Shown here piece after piece: positions 7,216-55,356 of a stretch of 55,356 bases of DNA (position 1 is the first letter of the stretch; each line of letters starts with the position of its first letter). The notes below the pieces were generated by a model. It did no database searches, was not told where the DNA came from, and saw only the letters and a program-made list of their open reading frames with translations. Both the position numbers and the translations under genes were made by a program. The stretch covers positions 1-55,356 of the forward strand of contig CALXXE010000012.1 in the NCBI GenBank assembly GCA_944392605.1, written 5' to 3'. This DNA comes from an uncultured Clostridia bacterium (GTDB taxonomy: Bacteria > Bacillota > Clostridia > TANB77 > CAG-508).

Positions 7216-7239
7216 ATAAAAGTGTGATAAATATTAAAA

Positions 7240-7490
7240 CCAATTAAAAAGCAAAGTATATATATTATAAAAATGCACAAGAGAAAAATGGTCATAGGCT
7301 GAAAGCCATTTAGCATGAATATATAGAAATTTCACTTTTTAGGTCTTTTCTTGAAATAATAGTAGGGAAAAGCGGTTGAACCGTTAAAACTTTAATTGAG
7401 GTTAGTTAATAATAAAACTAATAAAATTAGGTGGTACCACGAATGAATAACCATTTCGTCCTAAAAAGTAGGATTGAAATGGTTTTTTTG
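7240..7490 (+). promoter_or_regulatory. T-box riboswitch, probably Phe-tRNA responsive
   Basis: The leader contains the signature T-box sequence AGGTGGTACCACG (about 7429-7441), in which the TGGT part pairs with the acceptor end of uncharged tRNA, followed at once by an intrinsic terminator. Upstream lie Stem I features, including AAGAGA and a GGCTGAAAGCC distal hairpin. The trinucleotide TTC followed by A at 7331-7334 sits where the specifier is expected and codes for Phe, agreeing with pheS and pheT downstream. When tRNA-Phe is uncharged, antitermination should allow expression of the operon. The exact 5' end is approximate. Confidence 0.93.
7449..7489 (+). terminator. T-box regulated terminator
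   Basis: AACCATTTCGTCCTA (7449-7463) pairs with TAGGATTGAAATGGTT (7469-7484) around AAAAG, followed by a run of seven T. The 5' arm competes with the antiterminator formed by the T-box sequence. Confidence 0.92.
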
Positions 7491-7531: not shown

Positions 7532-7909
7532 ATGTTAAAACAAAGAGTAGTAGAGAATTATTTTGATTCAAAAATTTATAGTAATCAAGAAATAATACAA
7601 AGTATTGAAGAAACTAAAAAAGAATATTCTAAAAAAATAGTAGATGTAGATATCAATTTAAATGAATTTGGAGTTTATGTAGTTACTTACTATTTTAAAA
7701 ATCAAGACAATATTTTTCAAAAAATATTTATAAAAATAAAACAAAGAAAGAGGAAAAACAAAACTGTATTATTACAGGAAAAAAGTTTAGAACGTGAGAA
7801 AATGACAAGAGAAGAAAGAAAACAAGAAAAGGTAAGAAAAAGAATGGAAAAATATTCAGGTAATAAATATGGGGTATATAAGCAAACAAGAACATTTAAA
7901 CCATATTAA
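7532..7909 (+). CDS. Hypothetical protein in the T-box/pheST operon
   Basis: A 125-residue protein I do not recognise. The ATG has AAGGA about 9 bases upstream, and the gene is the first one after the T-box terminator. The N-terminal half (about 1-70) looks like a small alpha/beta fold with alternating hydrophobic positions ([19 protein letters not shown]). The C-terminal half (about 70-125) is very rich in Lys, Arg and Glu and ends [10 protein letters not shown], suggesting an RNA- or ribosome-binding tail. There is no signal peptide or membrane segment. Its position implies co-regulation with phenylalanyl-tRNA synthetase by phenylalanine status. The function is unknown. Confidence 0.75.
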
Positions 7910-7949
7910 AATATATAAATATAAAATAAAGGAAAAAGGAGAAGAGAAC

Positions 7950-8969
7950 ATGAAAGAAGAAATTGCAAAAATCAAAGAAAATTCCATAAAAGAAATGGAA
8001 AATTGTAAGAATCTAAAAACTCTAGATGAAGTAAGAGTAAAGTATTTAGGTAAAAAAGGAGAGTTGACCTCAGTTTTAAGAGGAATGGGAAAATTAAATC
8101 CAGAAGAAAGACCTATTATAGGAAGTCTAGTAAATGAAGTTAGAGATGAATTAAATTCCTTATTAGAAGAAAAAGAGAAAGAGCTAAAGAAAGAAGAATT
8201 ACAAAAAAAATTAGAAATAGAAAGTATAGATGTTACAGAGCCAAGTAAAAAGATAGCTTTAGGTTCACTTCATCCAATAACACAAATAATAGAAGAAGTA
8301 GAAGAAATTTTCTTAGGAATGGGGTATGAAATTGCAGATGGTCCAGAGGTGGAAAAAGCTACATATAATTTTGATAAATTAAATACACCACCAGACCATC
8401 CAGCAAGAGATGTTCAAGATACTTTCTACATTACTGATGATATAGTATTAAGAAGTCAAACATCACCAGTACAAGCAAGAGTAATGGAAACAAAGAAACC
8501 ACCAATTAAAATAATTTGCCCAGGTGCAGTTTATCGTTCAGATAGTGTAGACGCAACACATTCACCAGTGTTCCACCAAATAGAAGGACTTGTTGTAGAT
8601 AAGCATATTTCAATGACAGACTTAAAAGGAACATTAGAAATGTTTGCTAAAAAATGTTTAGGAGAAAATACTAAAATACGTTTTAGACCACATCATTTTC
8701 CATTTACAGAACCAAGTGCAGAAGCAGATGTTTCATGCTTCGTATGTGGAGGAAAAGGTTGCAAGGTTTGTAAAGGAGAAGGTTGGATAGAACTTTTAGG
8801 ATGTGGAATGGTTCATCCAAATGTGTTTAAAAATTGTGGAATAGATCCAGATGAATATACAGGTTTTGCATTTGGATTTGGTGTAGAAAGAATTGCAATG
8901 GCAAAATTCGGAATAGAAGACATGAGATTATTATTTGAGAATGATGCAAGATTCTTAAAACAATTTTAG
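7950..8969 (+). CDS. pheS: Phenylalanine--tRNA ligase alpha subunit
   Basis: The start is the ATG at 7950, with AAGGAGAAG upstream. An in-frame start at 7869 would overlap the previous gene and add about 27 non-conserved residues. The 339-residue product fits the family. An N-terminal coiled coil (about 1-85) binds tRNA, followed by the class II catalytic core with [11 protein letters not shown], the motif 2 region, and motif 3 [13 protein letters not shown] near the end. The Cys-rich insert [17 protein letters not shown] is common in clostridial-type PheS and may bind zinc. With PheT it forms the alpha2-beta2 enzyme charging tRNA-Phe. It is controlled by the T-box upstream. Confidence 0.97.
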
Positions 8970-9078
8970 ACTAAGATTAGTCAAGTAAAATTATTATAAG
9001 ATAAATTATAAATATAAGTTATAAATAATAGAGGATAAATGGTCAAAAATTTGATATTTATGAAGGAGTGTTGATAAA

Positions 9079-9366
9079 GTGGGACTTTTTAGTAAAAAGC
9101 CAAAGAAGAATAAATTATATACATTACAAGAAGCGATGAGCTTTGTAAGTGAAAATGGAGGATATTCAGTAATTCAAGAGCAGGAAGGATATAGAATAAT
9201 TCCAGATAGAGTAGCAAATGAGCATATTGATAAATATAAAAGTCAAATAAGACAAAGAGATGTTTTTACTCGTGGATTACAAACAGGATATACTCCAACT
9301 CAAAATGAAAATAGTGAAAATTCAAATTATAGACATAGATATGGTTATCATGAAGAAGAAAGATAA
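9079..9366 (+). CDS. Hypothetical protein between pheS and pheT
   Basis: A 95-residue protein starting at GTG 9079, preceded by GAAGGAGTG. I do not recognise the family. It starts MGLFSKKPKKNK (basic, possibly peripheral to the membrane), then a short alpha/beta-like unit with YTLQEAMSFVSENGGYSVI and EGYRIIPDRV, and a polar Asn/Gln/Tyr-rich C-terminus that looks disordered. It has no transmembrane segment or cysteines. It ends 21 bases before pheT, so the two are cotranscribed. The interruption of pheS and pheT is unusual because these genes normally adjoin. No function is proposed. Confidence 0.75.
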   Translation: MGLFSKKPKKNKLYTLQEAMSFVSENGGYSVIQEQEGYRIIPDRVANEHIDKYKSQIRQRDVFTRGLQTGYTPTQNENSENSNYRHRYGYHEEER

Positions 9367-9387
9367 AAGAAAGGAAGAAAATAAGAA

Positions 9388-11808
9388 ATGAAAGCAAGTG
9401 TGGAATGGTTAAAAGAATATAGTGATATAGATGTTGATTGTAAGAAGTTAGGAGATATTCTTACAATGACAGGTTCAAAAGTTGAAGAGATTATAGAAAA
9501 AGGAAATGATATAAAAAATGTTGTGGTTGGAAAAATATTAGAAATAAAGAAACATCCAAATGCAGATAAATTAGTTGTAACTAAAGTAGACGTTGGAACT
9601 GAGAAAATACAGATAGTAACAGGTGCTAAAAATATCAAAGAAAATGATATAGTTCCAATTGCAAAAGATGGAGCAGAACTTCCAGGAGAAAAGAAAATTG
9701 TAAAAAGTCCTTTAAGAGGAGTTGAATCTTGTGGAATGATGTGTTCTGTAGGAGAGCTTGGATTAGATATTAAAGATTATCCAAATCAAATAGAAGATGG
9801 AATAATGATACTTCCAGAATCTTATGAAAAAGATTTAGGAAAAGATATAGTAGATGTATTAAATTTAAAAGAAGATATAATTGATTTTGAAATAACACCT
9901 AATAGACCTGATTGTTTATCAATTGAAGGGTTAGGAAGAGAAACAGCAGCTTCACTTGGAAAAGAATTTAAGAATCCAAGAAAGAATTTAGATGAATTAA
10001 AAGTAGAAGATAAGAAGGATATAGAAGGACTAAAAGTAGATATTACAGCTCCAGATTTATGTTATAGATATATTGCAAGAGTTGTTAAAAACGTTAAAAT
10101 TGGACCATCACCAGAATGGATGGTAAGAAGATTAAAAGCATGTGGTGTTAGAAGTATTAATAATATAGTAGATATAACAAACTATGTAATGTTAGAACTT
10201 GGTCAGCCAATGCATGCATTTGATATTAATTCTATTGAAGGAAAACATATTACAGTAAGAAGAGCAAAAAATGGTGAAAAGATTACAACACTAGATGGAA
10301 TAGAAAGAGAGTTAAATGAAGATAATCTAGTTATAGCAGATGAGAAAAAAGCTGTTGCAATAGCAGGAGTAATGGGGGGACAAAACTCAGAAATAGAAGA
10401 AGGAACTCAAACTGTAGTATTTGAATCAGCAGTATTCTATGGAGGAAGTGTAAGAAAAACAGCAAAGAAAGTAGGATTAAGAACAGAAGCTTCTTCTAGA
10501 TATGAAAAAGGATTATCATCAGAAAACGCATTAAGAGCAGTAAATAGAGCAGTAGAATTAGTGGTAGAATTGGGTGCAGGAGAAGAAGTAGAAGGAAAAG
10601 TTGATGTATATCCTACTAAACAAAAACTAAACAAAATAAAATTAGATGTAGATAGAATAAATGATTTACTTGGAACTAATATCCCAGAACAAGAAATGGT
10701 AGATATATTAAAAAGATTAGATATAAAAGTAGAAAATGGATTTGCAATTGCCCCATATTTTAGAATGGATTTAGAATTTGTAGCAGATATAGCAGAAGAA
10801 ATTGCTAGATTCTATGGATATGATAAATTAGAAACAACTTTAATAAAAGCAGAGGCAACATTAGGTGTAAGAACAAAAGAACAAAAAATAGAAAAGAAAA
10901 TAGAAGATGTATTAGTAAATAATGGACTTTCAGAAATTTATACATATGGATTTTTTGGAGAAAAAGATTTAGAAAAATCAAAAATTCGTAAAGAATTAAT
11001 AGATAATGCGATAGAGATTTCAAATCCTCTAAGTGATGAATATAAGTTAATGAGACCAACAACTATTCCAAGTATGATGCAAACACTTGCTTTAAATAAC
11101 AACAAGAAAAATCAAAATGTTAAATTATTTGATATTTCAAGAAATTATAGAAATATAAATGGAGAAGTAGAAAAAGGAGAAATTCCATTACAAGAAAATA
11201 TTTTAACAATAGGAATGTATGGAGATGACGTTGATTTCTACACATTAAAAGGGTTAATAGAAAATGTATTAGAAGCTTCCAATGTAAATCATTATGATAT
11301 AGTAAAAGAAAAAGAAAATAGTTCATATCATCCGGGAAGATGTGCTAATATAAAAGTAGGTTTAGATGTAATTGCAACAATAGGAGAAGTACATCCAGAA
11401 GTTTTAATGAATTATGATATAAATAAAAGATGTTATTTAGCAGAACTTAATATAACAAAAGTAGTTAAGTATTCTAAACAAAATAAAAAATATCAGGAAG
11501 TACCAAAATTTCCAGCAGTAGAAAGAGATATTGCAATTGTGGTAGATGAAGATGCAGAAGTAGGCGCAATTGAACAATCAATTACAAAGAAATCCAAAAG
11601 ATTGTTAAAAGGTAAGAAAGGATTAGAAGAAATAAAATTATTTGATATTTATAGAGATGAAAAAATAGGAAAGGGTAAAAAGAGTATTGCTTATAGTTTA
11701 ATATTTAGAGATAAAACAAAGAGTATGTCAGATGACGAAATTAATCCTGTAATGGAAGAAATTACAAAAGAGTTAGAAGACAAATTTGGAGCAACTTTGA
11801 GAAAATAA
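9388..11808 (+). CDS. pheT: Phenylalanine--tRNA ligase beta subunit
   Basis: An 806-residue beta subunit of normal length. It has an N-terminal EMAP/OB tRNA-binding fold (about 40-150, with KHPNADKL), the B3/B4 editing domain (about 210-400, with NNIVDITNYVMLELGQPMHAFD), the B5 domain (about 405-475), a class II-like inactive catalytic module, and the C-terminal anticodon-binding FDX-ACB domain (about 710-806, with FPAVERDIAIVVDE). The B3/B4 module hydrolyses mischarged Tyr-tRNA-Phe. It is the last assured gene of the T-box operon. Start ATG has an AGGAAG ribosome binding site. Confidence 0.97.
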   Translation: MKASVEWLKEYSDIDVDCKKLGDILTMTGSKVEEIIEKGNDIKNVVVGKILEIKKHPNADKLVVTKVDVGTEKIQIVTGAKNIKENDIVPIAKDGAELPGEKKIVKSPLRGVESCGMMCSVGELGLDIKDYPNQIEDGIMILPESYEKDLGKDIVDVLNLKEDIIDFEITPNRPDCLSIEGLGRETAASLGKEFKNPRKNLDELKVEDKKDIEGLKVDITAPDLCYRYIARVVKNVKIGPSPEWMVRRLKACGVRSINNIVDITNYVMLELGQPMHAFDINSIEGKHITVRRAKNGEKITTLDGIERELNEDNLVIADEKKAVAIAGVMGGQNSEIEEGTQTVVFESAVFYGGSVRKTAKKVGLRTEASSRYEKGLSSENALRAVNRAVELVVELGAGEEVEGKVDVYPTKQKLNKIKLDVDRINDLLGTNIPEQEMVDILKRLDIKVENGFAIAPYFRMDLEFVADIAEEIARFYGYDKLETTLIKAEATLGVRTKEQKIEKKIEDVLVNNGLSEIYTYGFFGEKDLEKSKIRKELIDNAIEISNPLSDEYKLMRPTTIPSMMQTLALNNNKKNQNVKLFDISRNYRNINGEVEKGEIPLQENILTIGMYGDDVDFYTLKGLIENVLEASNVNHYDIVKEKENSSYHPGRCANIKVGLDVIATIGEVHPEVLMNYDINKRCYLAELNITKVVKYSKQNKKYQEVPKFPAVERDIAIVVDEDAEVGAIEQSITKKSKRLLKGKKGLEEIKLFDIYRDEKIGKGKKSIAYSLIFRDKTKSMSDDEINPVMEEITKELEDKFGATLRK

Positions 11809-42610: not shown

Positions 42611-42639
42611 TTGACAAGTATAAAAAAAATTAGTATAAT
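42611..42639 (+). promoter_or_regulatory. Consensus promoter of the tRNA cluster
   Basis: Perfect TTGACA (42611-42616), 17-base spacer, perfect TATAAT (42634-42639), about 20 bases before tRNA-Val. This is the strongest promoter in the window. Confidence 0.93.
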
Positions 42640-42659: not shown

Positions 42660-42735
42660 GGTCGCTTAGCTCAGCTGGGAGAGCATCTGCCTTACAAGCA
42701 GGGGGTCACAGGTTCGAGCCCTGTAGCGACCACCA
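42660..42735 (+). tRNA. tRNA-Val (TAC)
   Basis: A 76-base cloverleaf. Acceptor GGTCGCT pairs with AGCGACC, the D arm is GCTC/GAGC, the anticodon loop CTTACAA gives TAC, the T loop is TTCGAGC, and CCA is encoded. Confidence 0.96.
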
Positions 42736-42744
42736 TTGTTTTAC

Positions 42745-42821
42745 GGCCTGGTAGTTCAGTTGGTTAGAACGCTAGCCTGTCACGCTAGAGGTCGACGGTT
42801 CGAGCCCGTTCCAGGTCGCCA
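42745..42821 (+). tRNA. tRNA-Asp (GTC)
   Basis: A 77-base cloverleaf. Acceptor GGCCTGG pairs with CCAGGTC (one G-U), the anticodon loop CTGTCAC gives GTC, the T loop is TTCGAGC, and CCA is encoded. G34 makes it a target of the queuosine enzymes encoded at 30564-32758. Confidence 0.95.
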
Positions 42822-42835
42822 TTTTTTTATTATAA

Positions 42836-42881
42836 GGCTTGATAGCTCAGTTGGTAGAGCAAGGGACTGAAAATCTTTGGT
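42836..42881 (+). pseudogene. 5' half of a Phe-like (GAA) tRNA gene
   Basis: It begins 14 bases after tRNA-Asp. Acceptor strand GGCTTGA, a complete D arm GCTC...GAGC, and anticodon arm AGGGA-CTGAAAA-TCTTT (GAA anticodon, two G-U pairs) are followed by GGTGCA rather than a T arm. The matching 3' acceptor strand TCAAGCC is 195 bases away at 43076. Either a disrupted gene or one half of a split arrangement around the intact tRNA-Phe. Confidence 0.8.
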
Positions 42882-42891
42882 GCATTTTAAT

Positions 42892-42967
42892 GGCTTCATA
42901 GCTCAGTTGGTAGAGCAGGAGACTGAAAATCTCCGTGTCAGTGGTTCGATTCCACTTGAAGCCACCA
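42892..42967 (+). tRNA. tRNA-Phe (GAA)
   Basis: A complete 76-base cloverleaf. Acceptor GGCTTCA pairs with TGAAGCC, D arm GCTC/GAGC, anticodon stem GGAGA/TCTCC with loop CTGAAAA (GAA), variable GTGTC, T arm AGTGG-TTCGATT-CCACT, and CCA encoded. It is flanked by the inverted repeat TTTGGTGCA (42877-42885) and TGCACCAAA (42978-42986), and lies between the halves of another tRNA. It is the cognate of the T-box at 7240. Confidence 0.96.
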
Positions 42968-43007
42968 AACAATAATTTGCACCAAAAAAATTGAATTTTT
43001 TATGAAC

Positions 43008-43029
43008 ATCTAAAAAAATATCTAAAAAA
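43008..43029 (+). repeat. Tandem ATCTAAAAAA pair, possible integrase arm sites
   Basis: ATCTAAAAAA occurs at 43008-43017 and 43020-43029, a 12-base period, between the intact tRNA-Phe and the tRNA 3' half. Short direct repeats beside an integrase gene often are arm-type integrase sites. The AT-rich setting makes chance possible. Confidence 0.4.
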
Positions 43030-43050
43030 TTTAATTTTAACTTTTTCAGT

Positions 43051-43083
43051 TCAAAGACACGAGTTCGATTCTCGTTCAAGCCA
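43051..43083 (+). pseudogene. 3' half of a tRNA gene at the element edge (attL candidate)
   Basis: T arm ACGAG-TTCGATT-CTCGT (43059-43075) and acceptor strand TCAAGCC plus discriminator A (43076-43083). TCAAGCC is the exact complement of GGCTTGA in the 5' half at 42836, not of the intact tRNA-Phe. CCA is absent (CTT follows). It abuts the integrase gene by 29 bases, the usual position of a tRNA 3' end at an integrated element boundary. Confidence 0.75.
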
Positions 43084-43112
43084 CTTAATAATATTTCTTG
43101 AAGTAGTTAATT

Positions 43113-44288
43113 TTAGACAGCAACTACTTCTTTTTTTATACTAAATACATTTGCCATTACTTTTCCTGTATTGTTTACACTACTTGAATCTAAATGTGCA
43201 TATAAGTTAGCAGTAGTATTATAATTTGAATGACCAAGCCACGCTTGAATTTCTTTCATATTCGCACCATTTTTTAATAATATACTTGCACAAGTATGCC
43301 TTAAATCGTGAAAACGAATAATCTTTAAATTCTTTCTTTTTAATAATTTCAAAAATGTTTCTGTTACATAGTCTGGTCTAATTATATTTCCACAATTATC
43401 TACACAAATATATTCTAAATAATCTTTATTGTAACTATCTCCACATAGTTCTCTGTTGTTTTTTTGTTTTTCTTTTAGTTCAATTAAAAAAGATTTTACA
43501 ATAGGCTCTAATGGTAAAGTTCTTTTACTCGATTTTGTCTTTGTTTTATCTCTTATAATTAGTTTTCCGTTTGACTGTGTAATGGTGTGATCTATTGTAA
43601 TTGTATCATTTTCAAAATCAACTGCACTCCATTTTAAACCTATGACTTCACTTCTTCTAAAACCATAAAAACAATCTATCATTACAGGAATTTCTAATTT
43701 AGTTCCAATAACTTCATTTAGTAATGTTTTAACTTCATCACTTGTGTAGAATTTTGGCTTATATTCTTCAATTTTAGGTAAATCAACTTTGTCAGCAGGA
43801 TTTGATAAAATAATATCTGTTTTCATAGCATATTGTAAGGCTTTCCTTATATTTGCGTGATAATGTTTAACTGTATTTCCACAAAGTCCCTCATCTAATA
43901 AATATTGGTAAAATTCTTGTATATGCTTTGGCTTTATATTTTGTAGTGTTATTTTTGTATTTTTAAAATAATCTGTCATTCTGCCATTTATAACACCTTG
44001 ATAGCCATTTAGGGTTGTTGGCTCAACACTTGATGAAATCATTTTTAACCATTTTTTCATATAGTCTATAAAGAGTATATCTTCATTATCAATATTATCG
44101 CTATTAATTTCTTCTTGAAACTTTTTTCTAATCTCTTCTTTTTTGTTTTCTGCTTTTTTCTTATTTCCTTTTATAGCTTTTATACCTGTTGACTTCCATT
44201 TTGTTTCCCATTTTTCATTTTTCTTATAACTTAAAACGGCTTGATAAATACCGTTTCTTATCTGTAAGCTAGCTGTTACATTTATCAT
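43113..44288 (-). CDS. int: Tyrosine recombinase/integrase
   Basis: A 391-residue integrase of the Tn916/phage type. An N-terminal arm-binding AP2-like part (about 1-60) is followed by a SAM-like core-binding domain (about 70-165) and a catalytic domain with Arg211 or Arg212 in YGFRRSEVIGLKW, HDLRH (His327 and Arg330), LGHS (His353) and the nucleophile Tyr363 in NLYAHLD. All catalytic residues are present. Ribosome binding site AAGGAGT. The gene points toward the tRNA junction. It should catalyse integration and, with the neighbouring small HTH protein, excision. Confidence 0.95.
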   Translation of the reverse strand: MINVTASLQIRNGIYQAVLSYKKNEKWETKWKSTGIKAIKGNKKKAENKKEEIRKKFQEEINSDNIDNEDILFIDYMKKWLKMISSSVEPTTLNGYQGVINGRMTDYFKNTKITLQNIKPKHIQEFYQYLLDEGLCGNTVKHYHANIRKALQYAMKTDIILSNPADKVDLPKIEEYKPKFYTSDEVKTLLNEVIGTKLEIPVMIDCFYGFRRSEVIGLKWSAVDFENDTITIDHTITQSNGKLIIRDKTKTKSSKRTLPLEPIVKSFLIELKEKQKNNRELCGDSYNKDYLEYICVDNCGNIIRPDYVTETFLKLLKRKNLKIIRFHDLRHTCASILLKNGANMKEIQAWLGHSNYNTTANLYAHLDSSSVNNTGKVMANVFSIKKEVVAV

Positions 44289-48626: not shown

Positions 48627-50243
48627 GTGAAAAAAATTTCTGGAAATAAAAAACTAATTATTAGTGTTATGATAATTATAGTAGTAATTGCAATAATTGT
48701 GGGAAGTATAATTTCAATACAAAAAAGTGGAAGTAATATTTCTTTTGGAAAAAAGACTTTAAACATTTTATCAGGTTCTGAAAATGAAGTTTTAGAACCA
48801 ATACTTGAAGAATTTGAAAAACAAAATAATGTTAATATAAATATGACATACGAAGGTTCAGTAGATATTATGCAAGAACTTCAAAATGGTGCTGAAAACT
48901 ATGATGCGGTATTTCCTGCAAATAGTATATGGATAAGTATGGGTGATACTAATTTAAAAGTAAAAAATCAAAAATCAATTACAACAACACCTGTTGTATT
49001 CGGAATTAAAAAAAGTGTAGCAGAAAAATTAGGCTTTGTTGGAAAAGATGTAACAACCAAAGATATATTAGAAAAAATACAAAGCAAAGAACTTAGTTTT
49101 ATGATGACATCAGCAACCCAGTCAAATTCTGGAGCAACAGCATATTTAGGATTTATTTATGCTCTACTCGGAAATCCAGAAGTAATAACAGCAGAAGATT
49201 TAGATAATGAAGAATTAAAAGCAAACTTAACAACAATTCTTTCAGGAGTAAACCGCTCATCAGGAAGCTCTGATTGGCTTAAAGATTTATTTTTAGAAAG
49301 TGATTATGATGCAATGGTAAACTATGAATCAATTATAATCGATACAAATAAAGAATTAGTAGCTAGAGGAGAAGAACCTTTATATGTAATATATCCACAA
49401 GATGGTTTAGGAATTGCAGACTCACCACTAGGATATATTGATAATGGTAATAAGGAAAAAGAGGAAATATTTTTAAAATTACAGGATTATTTAATATCAG
49501 ATGAAGTAAAACCAAAATTATTAGAATTAGGAAGAAGAACAGCATTTGCAATAAATTTCGAAAATAATAATCCAGAAACATTTAATTCAGATTGGGGAAT
49601 TGATACAAAAAAAGTATTAAATGTTATGAAAATGCCAACAGCAGATGTAATTCAAAAGGCATTAAATATGTATCAAACAGAACTTAGAAAGCCATCACTT
49701 ACTGTATATTGTTTAGATTATTCAGGAAGTATGGCAGGAAACGGAGTGACGTCTCTAAGAAGTGCGATGAGTATGCTTTTAGATCAAACAAAAGCAAAAA
49801 ATTATATGCTACAAGCAAGCACGAAAGATGTAACAATAGTAATTCCATTTGATAATAATGTGTTAGATATATGGAAAGCGGAAGGAAATGATGAAACAAC
49901 ATTATTAGAATTACAAAGTAAAATAGACTCATTAGACCCACAGGGAGGTACAGATATTTATAAACCACTAATTAAGGCAATGGATGAAATTAAAAAATAT
50001 AATGTATCTGATTATACAACATCTATAATACTAATGTCAGACGGAAAATCGAATGTAAACTCATATAATCAGGTTGTAGAAGAGTGGAATCAAGAAAATT
50101 TAGACATTCCAATATTTTCAATAACATTTGGAGAGTCAGATGACAGAGAATTACAAGCACTAGCAGATTTTTCAACAGCAAGAGTATTTGATGGAAAAGA
50201 TAATTTAGAAAAAGCTTTTAAACAAGCAAAGGGATATAATTAA
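48627..50243 (+). CDS. Anchored solute-binding protein fused to a VWA domain
   Basis: A 538-residue protein starting at GTG 48627 with GGGAAGG 9 bases upstream. A basic N-terminus and one hydrophobic helix (about 10-32) act as uncleaved anchor or signal peptide. Residues about 45-345 are a type II periplasmic-binding-like domain (LNILSGSENEVLEPILEEFE, then YDAVFPANSIWISMG), similar to SBP_bac_11-type proteins. A C-terminal VWA domain (about 355-535) has a complete MIDAS: DYSGS at 364-368, the Thr in GGTDIY, and the Asp in SDGKSN. Both should face outside. The second binding protein, XpaC and TelA genes follow. Ligand unknown. Confidence 0.85.
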   Translation: MKKISGNKKLIISVMIIIVVIAIIVGSIISIQKSGSNISFGKKTLNILSGSENEVLEPILEEFEKQNNVNINMTYEGSVDIMQELQNGAENYDAVFPANSIWISMGDTNLKVKNQKSITTTPVVFGIKKSVAEKLGFVGKDVTTKDILEKIQSKELSFMMTSATQSNSGATAYLGFIYALLGNPEVITAEDLDNEELKANLTTILSGVNRSSGSSDWLKDLFLESDYDAMVNYESIIIDTNKELVARGEEPLYVIYPQDGLGIADSPLGYIDNGNKEKEEIFLKLQDYLISDEVKPKLLELGRRTAFAINFENNNPETFNSDWGIDTKKVLNVMKMPTADVIQKALNMYQTELRKPSLTVYCLDYSGSMAGNGVTSLRSAMSMLLDQTKAKNYMLQASTKDVTIVIPFDNNVLDIWKAEGNDETTLLELQSKIDSLDPQGGTDIYKPLIKAMDEIKKYNVSDYTTSIILMSDGKSNVNSYNQVVEEWNQENLDIPIFSITFGESDDRELQALADFSTARVFDGKDNLEKAFKQAKGYN

Positions 50244-50291
50244 AATTAAGCTGTTTTTTTAATATGAGCAAACAGCAAAAGGAATGGTAAT

Positions 50292-50912
50292 ATGTTAATT
50301 TATAGAAAAAACATTATAAGATTTGATATTTTAAATACACTAATAGCAATTATTATATTTATTTTACTATTTACCATATTAGAGATAAATATAATAATTT
50401 CAGGAATACTTGCAATGCTTATTTATATTGGTAGTGCTTTGTTATTTGCACCAAATAATAAATTAGTGTTACTTGGGATAAAAGATTCAAACAAACAAAA
50501 AGAATATATGAATTTATTAGATAATGGCTATGATAATTATGAAAAAATAATTAATATTAAAAATCAAATAACCAAACCACATATAAAACAAGAGTGTAAT
50601 GACATAATAGGAAAGATATCAAAAATATTAAAATATTTAGAAAAACATCCAAAGAAAATAGGCGAAAGTAAAAAGTTTTTTACATATTATTTAGAAACAA
50701 TTTATAAAATTGTAAATTCATACTTTGAAATATCTTCTCAAAATATACATACAAAAGAAATTGAAGATGTTATATCAAAAACAGAAAAAACACTTGTAAT
50801 GATAAATAAATCTTTAGACGACCAGTTTACAAAAATGATACAGAATGATGCATTAGATTTAGATACGGAAATAGATTTTTTAAAAAGCAGTATTCAGATG
50901 AAAGATTTTTAA
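50292..50912 (+). CDS. XpaC-like membrane protein
   Basis: A 206-residue protein with two close N-terminal helices (about 13-32 and 34-52), then a helical cytoplasmic domain (about 70-200) with NLLDNGYDNYEKIINIKNQI-type sequence. It resembles XpaC (5-bromo-4-chloroindolyl phosphate hydrolysis family), whose name comes from a phenotype rather than a proven enzyme activity. In Bacillus xpaC is next to the TelA-like gene yaaN. TelA is two genes downstream here, which supports the assignment. Ribosome binding site GGAATGG is weak. No catalytic residues can be identified. Confidence 0.72.
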   Translation: MLIYRKNIIRFDILNTLIAIIIFILLFTILEINIIISGILAMLIYIGSALLFAPNNKLVLLGIKDSNKQKEYMNLLDNGYDNYEKIINIKNQITKPHIKQECNDIIGKISKILKYLEKHPKKIGESKKFFTYYLETIYKIVNSYFEISSQNIHTKEIEDVISKTEKTLVMINKSLDDQFTKMIQNDALDLDTEIDFLKSSIQMKDF

Positions 50913-50928
50913 AATTGGAGGTGAAAAA

Positions 50929-51993
50929 ATGAAGTCAAAAATAGTAGGTGGAATTATATTATTACTAGTAATCATAGTAATTATTGCATTTCAATTTGTA
51001 AATGTGAATAAGCCAGAAGAAATAACAGTATCAGGATATTTAGGTGGAGAAAAAGAAGGTCTTATGCAAGATGAAGAAGTTAAAAAAATATTAAAAGATA
51101 AATATGGTATAACAGTTGAATATACAAAAGCTGGTTCTATAGAAATGATAGAACAAGATTCATCAGATAAAGATTATTTATTTCCATCTAGTCAAACAGC
51201 ATTAGAATTATTTAATCAGACTAAAAGTGATAAATTATATAAAAGTGAAATTGTATTTAATTCACCAATTGTAATTTATACTTGGAAACCAATCGCGGAA
51301 GCATTAATTAATAATGGAATAGTAGAAGAAAAAGACAATTCATATTATATTGCAGATACATCAGCATTAATAAAATTAGTAACAGACAAGAAAAAGTGGA
51401 GTGATATTGGTGTAAATGATTTGTATGGGTATGTAACAATACAATCAACTGATCCTAATAAATCAAATTCAGGAAATATGTTTGCAGGTTTAGTTGCAAA
51501 TATTATGAATAATGAAACAGTAGTTGATTCAAGTACTGTTGATACAATTTTACCTAATTTAAAAGACTTTTTTGGAAAAATTGGTTATATGGAACATTCT
51601 TCAGGAGATTTATTTGAACAATATTTGAAAACAGGAATGGGAGCTAAACCAATGATTGCAGGCTATGAAAATCAAATGATAGAATTTGCAATAGAAAATC
51701 CAAATGATTGGAATATGGTAAAAGAGCAAGTAGCAGTTTTATACCCAGAACCAACAGTATGGAGTTCTCACCCATTAATTGCTTTAAATGAAAAAGGAGC
51801 AAAACTAATAGAAGCAATGCAAGATGAAGAAATACAAAAAATAGCTTGGGAAAAACACGGATTTAGAACAGGTGTTAATGGAACAATAAATACAGAAGTT
51901 GAAGGATTTTATGGAATACCTAAAAATATAAATGCAGTTATTCAAATGCCAAATCCAGATACGATGCAAAAAATAATGGATGGTATAAAATAA
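50929..51993 (+). CDS. Second anchored solute-binding protein
   Basis: A 354-residue protein with a signal anchor at about 4-24 and no lipobox Cys, followed by a type II periplasmic-binding-like domain (about 32-350). Segments ITVSGYLGGEKEGLMQDEEV, SPIVIYTWKPIAEALINNG, and TDPNKSNSGNMFAGLVANIM resemble the SBP half of the VWA fusion upstream (compare its ATQSNSGATAYLGFIYALLG). The two probably arose by duplication, with VWA present only on one. No ABC permease or ATPase adjoins, so sensing or scaffolding is more likely than uptake. GGAGGTG ribosome binding site; 16 bases after XpaC. Confidence 0.8.
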   Translation: MKSKIVGGIILLLVIIVIIAFQFVNVNKPEEITVSGYLGGEKEGLMQDEEVKKILKDKYGITVEYTKAGSIEMIEQDSSDKDYLFPSSQTALELFNQTKSDKLYKSEIVFNSPIVIYTWKPIAEALINNGIVEEKDNSYYIADTSALIKLVTDKKKWSDIGVNDLYGYVTIQSTDPNKSNSGNMFAGLVANIMNNETVVDSSTVDTILPNLKDFFGKIGYMEHSSGDLFEQYLKTGMGAKPMIAGYENQMIEFAIENPNDWNMVKEQVAVLYPEPTVWSSHPLIALNEKGAKLIEAMQDEEIQKIAWEKHGFRTGVNGTINTEVEGFYGIPKNINAVIQMPNPDTMQKIMDGIK

Positions 51994-52020
51994 AAATAAA
52001 TTGTAAGGAGTAAAAAAATT

Positions 52021-53136
52021 ATGGAAGAAATTAAAAAAGAAGATTTAATTATCAAAGAAGGAAGTACAGCAATTACTGAAGAAAATATATATGATTATAA
52101 CAAATTATCAGAAGAAGATAAAAAAGAAGTAACAAACATTATGAAAAATATAGAAGATGGAGATTCTAACAGTGTGATTCAATATGGAGTAGGAGCACAG
52201 TCAGAAATTGCAAATTTCTCAAATAAAATGTTAGAAGATGTAAGAGCAAAAGATACAGATTACGTAGGAGATATTTTATCTAACTTAATGGTTAAAGTAA
52301 AAAATACAGACGTAAATGGTTTTATACAGGAAAGTCCGTTAGAGAATATTCCTGTAATTGGAAAATTAGTAGATAAAACAAAGAGATTTTTTGCAAAATA
52401 TCAAAAAATTGAAAGTCAAATAGATGAAATATCTGAAAAGCTTGACAATGAAAGAACAATTCTTCTAAAAGATATTGTTATGTTTGACAATTTATTTGAA
52501 AAGAATACGGAATGTATTCATAATTTAGATTTATATATTATTGCAGGAAATAAAAAAATCGAAGAATTAAAAACAAAAATACTACCAGAAATGCAAAAAA
52601 AAGCAGAAGAAACAAAAGATCCTTTAAATGCACAAAAAGTTGCTGATATGAGTGATTTTACTGCTAGATTTGAAAAAAAGATACATGATTTGAAATTAAC
52701 AAGAACAATTGCAATTCAAACAGCTCCACAAATAAGATTTATCCAGTCAGGGAATAAAGCTTTGGTAGATAGAATTCAGTCATCAATACTAAATACAATA
52801 CCTCTTTGGAAAAGTCAAATTGTTCTTGCAATTGGAATTATTAGGCAAAAAGGTGCATTGGATTTACAAAAACAAGTAACAGAAACAACAAATGAGTTAT
52901 TAAAGAAAAATTCTGAAATGCTAAAAACAAATACAATAGAAATAGCAAAAGAAAATGAAAAAGGAATTGTTGAATTAGAAACACTAAAAAAAGTAAATGA
53001 CGATTTAATAACAACGATTGAAGAAACAATTAAAATAAGCGAAGAAGGAAGAGTAAAACGTAAAGAAGTTGAAAAAGAACTAGTTGTAATTGAGAAAGAT
53101 TTAAAAGATAAATTGTTAAATACGAAAAATAATTAA
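52021..53136 (+). CDS. TelA-like toxic anion resistance protein
   Basis: A 371-residue cytoplasmic, mostly helical protein of the TelA/KlaA family (PF05816). Seen: YGVGAQSEIANFSNKMLEDV, followed by VGDILSNLMVKVK, FFAKYQKIESQIDEISEKLD, and the long conserved helices ARFEKKIHDLKLTRTIAIQT and APQIRFIQSGNKALVDRIQS (family hallmark), with IPLWKSQIVLAIGI. The family is linked to resistance to tellurite and other stress and to Ter-type systems, but the biochemical activity is unknown. AAGGAG ribosome binding site. Together with XpaC it corresponds to the Bacillus xpaC-yaaN pair, here joined to outside-facing binding proteins. Confidence 0.88.
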   Translation: MEEIKKEDLIIKEGSTAITEENIYDYNKLSEEDKKEVTNIMKNIEDGDSNSVIQYGVGAQSEIANFSNKMLEDVRAKDTDYVGDILSNLMVKVKNTDVNGFIQESPLENIPVIGKLVDKTKRFFAKYQKIESQIDEISEKLDNERTILLKDIVMFDNLFEKNTECIHNLDLYIIAGNKKIEELKTKILPEMQKKAEETKDPLNAQKVADMSDFTARFEKKIHDLKLTRTIAIQTAPQIRFIQSGNKALVDRIQSSILNTIPLWKSQIVLAIGIIRQKGALDLQKQVTETTNELLKKNSEMLKTNTIEIAKENEKGIVELETLKKVNDDLITTIEETIKISEEGRVKRKEVEKELVVIEKDLKDKLLNTKNN

Positions 53137-54468: not shown

Positions 54469-54496
54469 AATAGAGGGCATAACCCCTCTATTTTAT
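54469..54496. terminator. Bidirectional terminator between flavodoxin and relaxase genes
   Basis: AATAGAGGG (54469-54477) pairs with CCCTCTATT (54484-54492) around CATAAC, between convergent genes; AT tracts are on both sides. Confidence 0.8.
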
Positions 54497-55356
54497 AGTT
54501 CTTTTTCAAAATCTCTAAATCTTTCTTGTTTAGCAAACTGTTTTTCAGCATTTAAAGAATTTCCAGTTTCTTTCTCAAAATCTCTAACAATTTCATCTCC
54601 AGAAAGTAAGTCGAATTTTTTACAGAGCCATTTTATAAATTTTTTAACGGTTTCCTCAAAAGTTTTAATGATTTTATGAAGTTTATTATTTTCCTTTTCT
54701 AGTTTGTGTATTTTATACTTATATTCATATTCTAAATTAAAAGCTTTTTCTTCAAACTCTTTTTCTAATTCTTCTTTTCTATTATTATATCTAAAATCAA
54801 GGGAATTGCTTTTAACTTTGTAATCGTGTTCCATTTGATATACTTTATTGTGTAATTTTTCATTATCTTCAAGTATTTTTTTTCTTTCTTTTTGATATTT
54901 TTCAGCCTCATCAATTACATTTACTTGTCTTTCAATTTCTCCGTGTAATTGTTTATTTTCAGAGTATAATTTTTCAATAAGTTTATCTTTTGGCTCAATT
55001 ATTTCTTTTTGTATTTTCTCATTTCTTTTGAAAACAACCTTATTAAAATCTTCAATACTTGGTACTTCTGGAAGTTCTAAACTAATATCTTGTAAAATCT
55101 CTTTTGTTTTATCATAATTCGTAATTTTTTTAAATTCTTCAATACTTAAATGATTTCTTTTTGTTTCTTCTTTTGGTAAACCTCTTTCTAGTTCAAAATT
55201 GTGTAAAATCATATATTCGTAAAAAGCATTTTGTAATTGTCTGTAACTGTCTTTTTCCTTCCAAAACTCACTACAAGCTAATTTATCAATATCATTTCCT
55301 TTTTTATCTTTTGTATGAACAACTGGTAAAAAAACTAAGTGCATATGTGGTGTATC
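54493..55356 (-). CDS. mobV: MobV-type relaxase (Pre/Mob), N-terminally truncated by the window
   Basis: The frame is open to the right edge, leaving 287 residues. The first visible residues DTPHMHLVFLPVV match the conserved MobV motif (D-E-x-T-P-H-x-H), which binds the metal of the relaxase active site. Next comes LACSEFWKEKDSYRQLQNAFYEYM, and the C-terminal two-thirds is a long coiled coil (about 130-230 of the fragment), as in Pre/Mob proteins. MobV nicks DNA at oriT, which normally lies upstream of the gene and so outside the window. It ends in a bidirectional terminator opposite the flavodoxin gene. Confidence 0.9.
   Translation of the reverse strand, partial: DTPHMHLVFLPVVHTKDKKGNDIDKLACSEFWKEKDSYRQLQNAFYEYMILHNFELERGLPKEETKRNHLSIEEFKKITNYDKTKEILQDISLELPEVPSIEDFNKVVFKRNEKIQKEIIEPKDKLIEKLYSENKQLHGEIERQVNVIDEAEKYQKERKKILEDNEKLHNKVYQMEHDYKVKSNSLDFRYNNRKEELEKEFEEKAFNLEYEYKYKIHKLEKENNKLHKIIKTFEETVKKFIKWLCKKFDLLSGDEIVRDFEKETGNSLNAEKQFAKQERFRDFEKEL

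Follow-up and report, generated by a model that had tools for sequence, protein, structure and literature searches.

Tyrosine integrases reportedly use tRNA genes, the anticodon loop included, as targets, and a displaced gene fragment is said to mark the far end of the integrated element, as set out by Williams in 2002 (cited in PMC8371274). The closest described system is the tRNA-dependent lysogeny of mycobacteriophages, in which the cores measure 8–17 bp, the host tRNA is not rebuilt and the phage tRNA was shown to be needed (Guerrero-Bustamante and Hatfull 2024, PMC10865867). Fionnbharth, LeBron and Gaia are among the tRNA-dependent actinobacteriophages, the last using Leu-CAA. The same paper treats tandem integration into a plasmid-borne tRNA as speculation only, and it cites prophage Lj965 of Lactobacillus johnsonii, which reportedly encodes a cognate tRNA and does not rebuild its target tRNA, as a possible case outside Actinobacteria. 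In a Sinorhizobium study a host tRNA gene was substituted by a prophage one (PMC11476347, in part).

Here we analyzed a stretch of 55,356 nt (the window) from the genome of an uncultured Clostridia bacterium, and we are highly confident that it contains the attL of a mobilizable integrative element that sits in the host tRNA-Phe gene and brings along a complete spare tRNA-Phe. As in tRNA-dependent lysogeny, a tyrosine integrase, an attB in a tRNA gene, attP/attB identity of about 10 bp (here 10 bp) and a tRNA that is not rebuilt are combined with a complete tRNA of the same isotype, here in the window and in the other 15 of 16 recognized Phe sites (PMC10865867, in part). Different from that system, the carriers look like relaxase-bearing mobilizable elements of Clostridia and not like phages, they target Phe(GAA), Gln(CTG) and Leu(CAA), their spare tRNA is found downstream of the host promoter at a distance of 16 to ~130 bp from the core, and natural nesting in borne tRNAs appears to occur. 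We say that the element works like lysogeny and not that it is lysogeny, because two related elements (loci L149 and L151) code for a Mob_Pre relaxase and no phage structural family was found in the ORFs scanned (7 of 11 listed for L149, 1 of 11 for L151). Lj965 likewise is an element of Firmicutes with a target tRNA that is reported to stay unrebuilt and an encoded cognate tRNA, but it is a prophage (PMC10865867, in part). Conventional tRNA-gene islands share the tyrosine integrase at tRNA genes (Islander, PMC4383910, in part); they restore the gene from carried sequence, in contrast to the present elements, which leave it broken and bring a complete spare gene. Integrative and mobilizable elements share the pair of integrase and relaxase and differ in lacking the presumably essential tRNA cargo and the non-restoring junction (PMC5704250, in part). 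Among the literature matches listed (titles and abstract openings) we found no description of tRNA-dependent integration in mobilizable elements, the precedent that came up being one in phages. The mechanism matches that of mycobacteriophages, and the differences lie in the relaxase-bearing carriers, their occurrence in Clostridia and the position of the spare tRNA inside the host operon.

At the level of sequence we could demonstrate the split of the host gene, its two junctions and the matching lost half, and also that the borne tRNA is complete and under structural selection and that relatives follow the same plan. The features at this locus are the following (G, C and L numbers denote genomes, contigs and loci; the window belongs to G000).

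42611 to 42639, forward strand: tRNA operon promoter, TTGACA-17-TATAAT, agreeing with the consensus at 12 of 12 positions
42660 to 42735, forward strand: host tRNA-Val(TAC), found by ARAGORN and Rfam
42745 to 42821, forward strand: host tRNA-Asp(GTC), found by ARAGORN and Rfam
42836 to 42875, forward strand: 5' half of the host tRNA-Phe, ending at the anticodon loop; intact orthologue in G005, stems pair with C21:783-828
42876 to 42892, forward strand: left end of the element, linker TTTGGTGCATTTTAAT (42876-42891) and left inverted-repeat arm; the linker begins with TTTGGTGCA in 12 of 16 occupied Phe sites
42892 to 42967, forward strand: complete element-borne tRNA-Phe(GAA); ARAGORN, Rfam 72.1 bits with a cut-off of 29
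42970 to 42986, forward strand: right inverted-repeat arm beside the borne tRNA
43005 to 43032, forward strand: AT-rich repeat resembling arm-type sites, 96% identical to C21:619-645
43040 to 43083, forward strand: element-borne module, an inverted core copy (TTTTTCAGTTC, read by eye) and then a T-arm and acceptor 3' end (43059-43083)
43100 to 43137, forward strand: terminator-like hairpin with seven T behind it, which overlaps int at its 3' end (-8.8 kcal/mol, z -2.8; presumed function)
43113 to 44288, reverse strand: tyrosine integrase of 391 aa, Pfam Phage_integrase 8e-26, SAM-like N-terminal domains
54493 to 55344, reverse strand: Mob_Pre-type relaxase, partial, Pfam Mob_Pre 3e-7, profile positions 135-196

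An earlier note, made from the letters of this DNA, had described a 5' tRNA half from 42836 and a 3' half with T arm and acceptor at 43051–43083 around an intact tRNA-Phe, and both pieces as well as the single inner tRNA-Phe(GAA) (ARAGORN and Rfam) were found where it had placed them, the T-arm and acceptor themselves at 43059–43083. The core ACTGAAAATC occupies 42866–42875, the final 10 bases of the host 5' half; it consists of the 7-bp anticodon loop with 1 base before and 2 after, and all 10 bp are common to attL in the window and attR on contig C21. The operon promoter presumably also drives the borne tRNA-Phe. The inverted repeat that had been noticed around the inner tRNA was confirmed, with 17-nt arms (42876–42892 and 42970–42986) that are 82% complementary, and a 255-nt stretch folds far more strongly than shuffled controls (z -6.95). 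Inspected by eye, this repeat recurs in altered forms across elements (L050, L102–L110), with TTTGGTGCA paired with TTTGCACCAAA, TTTGTACCAAA or TTTGCACT; it could provide integrase sites or an RNA stem for processing. The copy of the AT-rich repeat at C21:619–645 lies 138 bp inside the other element end, as it should if the repeats serve the integrase as arm sites at the two ends of a single element. The hairpin at 43100–43137 has a loop of 13 nt and is absent from the listing of the scan that gave the operon promoter. The relaxase is partial because the contig of the window ends at 55356, and longer homologues are present in L149 and L151. As further element cargo, the region 48627–53136 encodes a fusion of solute-binding and von Willebrand A domains and a TelA-family protein; none of the five proteins in this region and just after it has a PADLOC match.

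The host 3' half was found by DNA search on contig C21 of the same genome (match at C21:770–829, 87%). At C21:783–828 the core ACTGAAAATC is followed by CCTGTGTCAGTGG...TCAAGCCACCA, and together with the 5' half in the window this stretch pairs in 7 of 7 acceptor and 5 of 5 anticodon stem positions. The uninterrupted tRNA-Phe of the type GGCTTGA...TCAAGCC that the earlier note had proposed to look for in relatives is present in G005 (L043), which came out first in the operon search with 96% over the query, and reads GGCTTGA...AGGGACTGAAAATCCCT...TCAAGCCACCA. By eye, the flank past the C21 half is unlike the flank of this empty site. The two junctions lie on different contigs (C12 and C21), so that the element of the window is not read as one piece. 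As a control for the pairing we used the nine genomes with both junctions (G000, G004, G049, G079, G210, G212, G214, G215 and G216). The attL and attR halves of the same genome pair 7/7 and 5/5 in eight of nine (with one G:U in G004), the exception being G212, while full pairing was observed in 19 of 72 cross pairs overall and in 6 of 56 among genomes with differing 5' halves. ARAGORN also calls a tRNA when the halves are joined, as the earlier note had suggested checking, but it does so in 197, 195, 196 and 195 of 209 joins for G000, G004, G210 and G212, alike for matching and mismatching acceptors; since nearly all arbitrary joins are called as well, this is weak evidence, and it is the stem pairing with its cross-pair control that carries weight. 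In G212 the attR half mismatches the attL half and resembles the half of another tRNA-Phe, and a further Phe 5' half and 3' half lie at the ends of its contigs C12 and C13, perhaps from a second site or a stacked element.

The same arrangement was observed in relatives, nearly all of which, like the genome of the window, look like metagenome assemblies. We found 16 distinct tRNA-Phe sites in which the host 5' half leads through a linker to a complete borne tRNA-Phe (G000, G004, G049, G079, G202, G244, G376, L103, L104, L106, L108, L109, L110, L112, L113 and L116); they were recognized by this very plan, and the presence of a borne tRNA in 16 of 16 is therefore no independent rate. The contig of the site in G049 (L050) stops before any integrase. 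The host 5' halves vary (GGCTTCA, GGCTTGA, GCCTTGA, GCCTTTA, GCCTCGA and GGCCAGA) while the linker start TTTGGTGCA is constant in 12 of 16, which places the junction at the end of the core. The linker measures 16 bp in 14 of 16 sites; the two longer ones are those of G244 (92 bp) and L112 (109 bp). Healed-looking sites were seen in G084, G181, L117 and L208. As a separate observation, the last 210 bases of L071 (G023:C7) hold a broken array, in which the tRNA-Phe start behind tRNA-Asp ends after GGTAGA and is followed by ~120 unrelated bases and another tRNA-Phe start, which runs into the contig end.

Searching genome contigs with the integrase gave 16 loci, which belong to Clostridia by their record titles, and in a sample of 390 genomes of the family 93 have matches at E <= 1e-70; viral contigs yielded a single distant relative with 29% identity. 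Among the 30 integrase loci examined, the best of all family-search matches, 12 were recognized as split by script and one (L225) by eye, in 8 a single complete tRNA adjoins the integrase, and 9 have no tRNA within the available stretch, which in one case is 8 bases long. Single complete tRNAs beside the integrase, as in conventional elements, are found in L214, L216, L226 and L229, and in L217, another single-tRNA locus, a second, weak half resembling Gln can be made out by eye. Split sites occur at three isotypes, namely Phe(GAA), Gln(CTG) in L219 and L223, and Leu(CAA) in L225 and on contig C1 of the genome studied here. On an integrase tree of 31 rows, from which L212 and L226 were left off for want of a 300-residue frame with the searched motif, the split label needs 6 changes, 4 of them forced by well-supported branches (shuffled mean 10.5), so that the split habit was gained or lost several times.

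The piece at 43059–43083 does not support the first reading, in which both outer pieces would belong to a single tRNA. Its acceptor does pair 7/7 with the host half in the window (GGCTTGA/TCAAGCC), but this match is no evidence of one gene, because three further hosts (G004, G210 and G212) carry the TCAAGCC piece unaltered and pair with it at 6/7, and the real 3' half lies on C21. Across the 16 occupied Phe sites the 26-base piece is exact in 4 (the window, L102 in G004, L103 and L108), missing from 11, where the best stretch differs at 11 to 14 bases, and out of view in L050, whose contig ends before it. The piece is thus element-borne and mismatched in 3 of its 4 carriers, which is the outcome that the earlier note had itself named as speaking against a single gene (at least 11 of 26 bases differ in the 11 sites). 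Allowing at most 2 mismatches, it was matched in 6 of the 210 genomes of the genus (G000, G004, G084, G089, G181 and G122); in all of these except G122 it adjoins a tRNA-Phe and AT-rich repeats, and in G084, G181 and G089 similar pieces stand beside healed-looking or divergent sites. In G122 (C1, ~750–825, L198) we noticed by eye a tRNA-Asp-like gene with the acceptor GGCTTGT/ACAAGCC and the same T-arm as in this piece, adjoining other tRNA-like sequence. Among phages there were only five exact matches of 20 bases and a single match of 85%, each with E 0.4, and plasmids gave no match. The likeliest reading is that the piece is an att relic.

That tRNA-bearing DNA was inserted here and that att-site layers remain, as had been proposed, agrees with these results. 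The more specific version, in which a small tRNA cassette entered a conventional attL whose host 5' half and 3' piece had earlier formed a rebuilt tRNA, is improbable: the 3' piece does end with a T-arm and acceptor in tRNA sense and some relatives of the integrase adjoin a single complete tRNA (L214, L216, L226 and L229), but arm-like repeats sit between the borne tRNA and the piece, elements without the piece share the same kind of linker and borne tRNA, the core copy directly preceding the piece is inverted (by eye), and no locus read has the host 5' half and the piece without a borne tRNA.

We then considered the borne tRNA as a replacement. In eight distinct borne tRNA-Phe sequences all 168 of 168 cloverleaf cells are paired, 10 of 21 pairs show changes on both sides (a level reached by 0 of 500 shuffles) and slid structures pair at 27–46%, which demonstrates, as far as sequence comparison can, structural selection on the borne tRNA-Phe. 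Nine borne copies are identical, and the integrases beside eight of them are only 74–98% identical to that of the window. The gene at 42892–42967 is the only complete tRNA-Phe found in the assembly and could, as already suggested, compensate for the loss of the outer one. Rfam finds 31 tRNA places in this genome, and ARAGORN, applied to 30 loci holding them, calls one Phe and one Leu(CAA), both element-borne; the place at C30:1–68 is cut by the contig end, has no ARAGORN call and does not match the Phe query. Searching 13 of the 16 split-site genomes with the borne tRNA gave no other full-length tRNA-Phe match in 11 of 13, the exceptions being G193, with one additional chimeric tRNA-Phe (C98) likewise called Phe by ARAGORN, and G212. 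The eleven other or extra matching places that we read are eight tRNA-Lys(CTT), one tRNA-Asp beside the C12 half of G212, one place without a call (G212, C13) and the G193 copy, so that apart from this copy the ten places hold no further complete tRNA-Phe. The cell thus probably relies on the element's copy for an essential tRNA, and the borne gene would be expressed and essential.

An even less probable alternative is that we see inert remains of old integrations, with a non-functional borne tRNA and another tRNA-Phe in the missing part of the genome. Another tRNA-Phe is possible because the assembly is 88.7% complete (7.25% contamination), and the healed-looking sites (G084, G181, L117 and L208) suggest that the array can revert to a single intact tRNA; against this, the borne tRNAs keep every stem with compensatory changes, nine copies are identical beside diverged integrases, and 11 of 13 genomes lack a second full-length match. 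The suggestion that the outer pieces are transcribed through and spliced into one tRNA, a bacterial split or intron-containing tRNA, has a practically negligible chance: the acceptors pair, the stretch folds well and both pieces lie between the operon promoter and the terminator-like hairpin, but the 3' piece is element-borne, missing from 11 of 16 sites, mismatched in G004, G210 and G212 and preceded by an inverted core, the host's own 3' half is on C21, and Rfam at gathering cut-offs finds in the window a T-box and three tRNAs only. In view of the element-borne piece and the displaced true half we rejected a split or spliced tRNA, and a self-splicing intron was rejected since Rfam at these cut-offs found no intron core in the window.

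Returning to the reading as an attL with a spare tRNA, the integrase recombined the 10-bp core common to attB and attP, with a crossover probably in the anticodon stem-loop, and owing to the shortness of this stretch the host tRNA was split and not rebuilt. The 5' half stayed behind tRNA-Asp and the 3' half moved to the other element end (C21:783–828). Because the borne tRNA sits 16 bp inside the left end, integration brings it into the Val-Asp-Phe operon downstream of the host promoter, and it may be made from there. Precise excision would be expected to restore the host tRNA-Phe, and loss of the element by deletion would remove the sole tRNA-Phe seen. At the other element end, the 291 bases scanned hold one 9-of-12 promoter match, fewer than in shuffles.

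The elements measured span ~9–14 kb, and in three of them both ends lie on one contig: G214 (9.8 kb), G212 (9.0 kb, with the mismatched attR half) and G215 (10.5 kb). The G214 and G212 elements code for a Mob_Pre relaxase (L149 and L151, 1.3e-43 and 2.4e-44), the former also for a Fic protein and an HTH protein, and the G215 element has a distant integrase (47%) and a primase-helicase-like protein (DUF5906, D5_N). This last element (L150, G215:C5:80500–92254) follows the same tRNA plan, has a second integrase-like gene, and resembles a satellite or plasmid more than it does a Mob element. A second case exists in the genome studied here: on contig C1 the host tRNA-Leu(CAA) GCCGATG... is cut after ACTCAAAATC next to a complete borne tRNA-Leu(CAA) GCAGGTG...CACCTGC, and a host-like Leu 3' half (CAGCGG...CATCGGTACCA) lies ~13.7 kb away, its acceptor pairing by eye with one G:U, so that both ends are on one contig. 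This element has a MobA-type relaxase (8.9e-40). Integrase together with relaxase, the pair expected of an integrative and mobilizable element, was found in L149, in L151, in the Leu element and, with the partial relaxase, in the window. Between 3350 and 8810 the Leu element (L258, C1:113300–127900) also encodes a type IIG restriction enzyme of the MmeI type, an AAA ATPase and a pair of HipA-like proteins that match the PADLOC candidates PDC-M03A/B, a probable defence cargo.

Some borne tRNAs appear to have become targets themselves; the evidence comes from metagenome contigs. G216 (L113/L164) shows the host half, a linker with the 5' half of a borne GGTCTGA... tRNA, the core, a second linker and a complete borne tRNA GGCTTCA..., and we count two elements because the linkers differ (TTTGGTGCAATTTAAT versus TTTGGTGCAAACTTAT). 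The displaced 3' half of the GGTCTGA tRNA was searched for in G216 and not found, so that this nesting is read from the left junction and a chimeric assembly at the shared core is possible. In G193:C98 a stretch of core, linker and 5' half is joined to the 3' half and flank of another borne tRNA, as in L207 (by eye), which reads as a crossover in a borne anticodon loop. At 988–1044 of the same locus (L157) a lone 56-bp linker and borne-tRNA 5' half is flanked on one side by an element end and on the other by a 3' half that belongs to another borne tRNA, and this would be a recombination scar in a borne anticodon loop.

We consider it somewhat better than an even bet that in Clostridia a clade of integrases spreads through an exchange of tRNA genes: the borne tRNA would rescue the split gene under the host promoter, create dependence and be the next landing site, and stacking elements would swap the host tRNA-Phe, -Leu(CAA) or -Gln(CTG) for the versions of other species, with the tRNA-Phe(GAA) and tRNA-Leu(CAA) of this genome then coming only from mobile elements. 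With such a system, tRNA-dependent integration would reach beyond actinobacterial phages to include mobilizable elements of Clostridia and several isotypes, and there would be a natural example of elements nested in each other's tRNA genes, earlier only guessed for plasmids. A single-copy essential tRNA on a mobile element would be a toxin-free way to resist element loss. For annotators, split tRNA halves close to a complete tRNA of their own isotype are a mark of element ends, which island finders expecting a rebuilt tRNA may miss.

Elsewhere in the window, Rfam detects a T-box leader at 7234–7466 (98.3 bits) that precedes apparent phenylalanyl-tRNA synthetase genes (7869–11808, named by eye from the translation). 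If this T-box senses uncharged tRNA-Phe, the sensed tRNA would now be element-borne.
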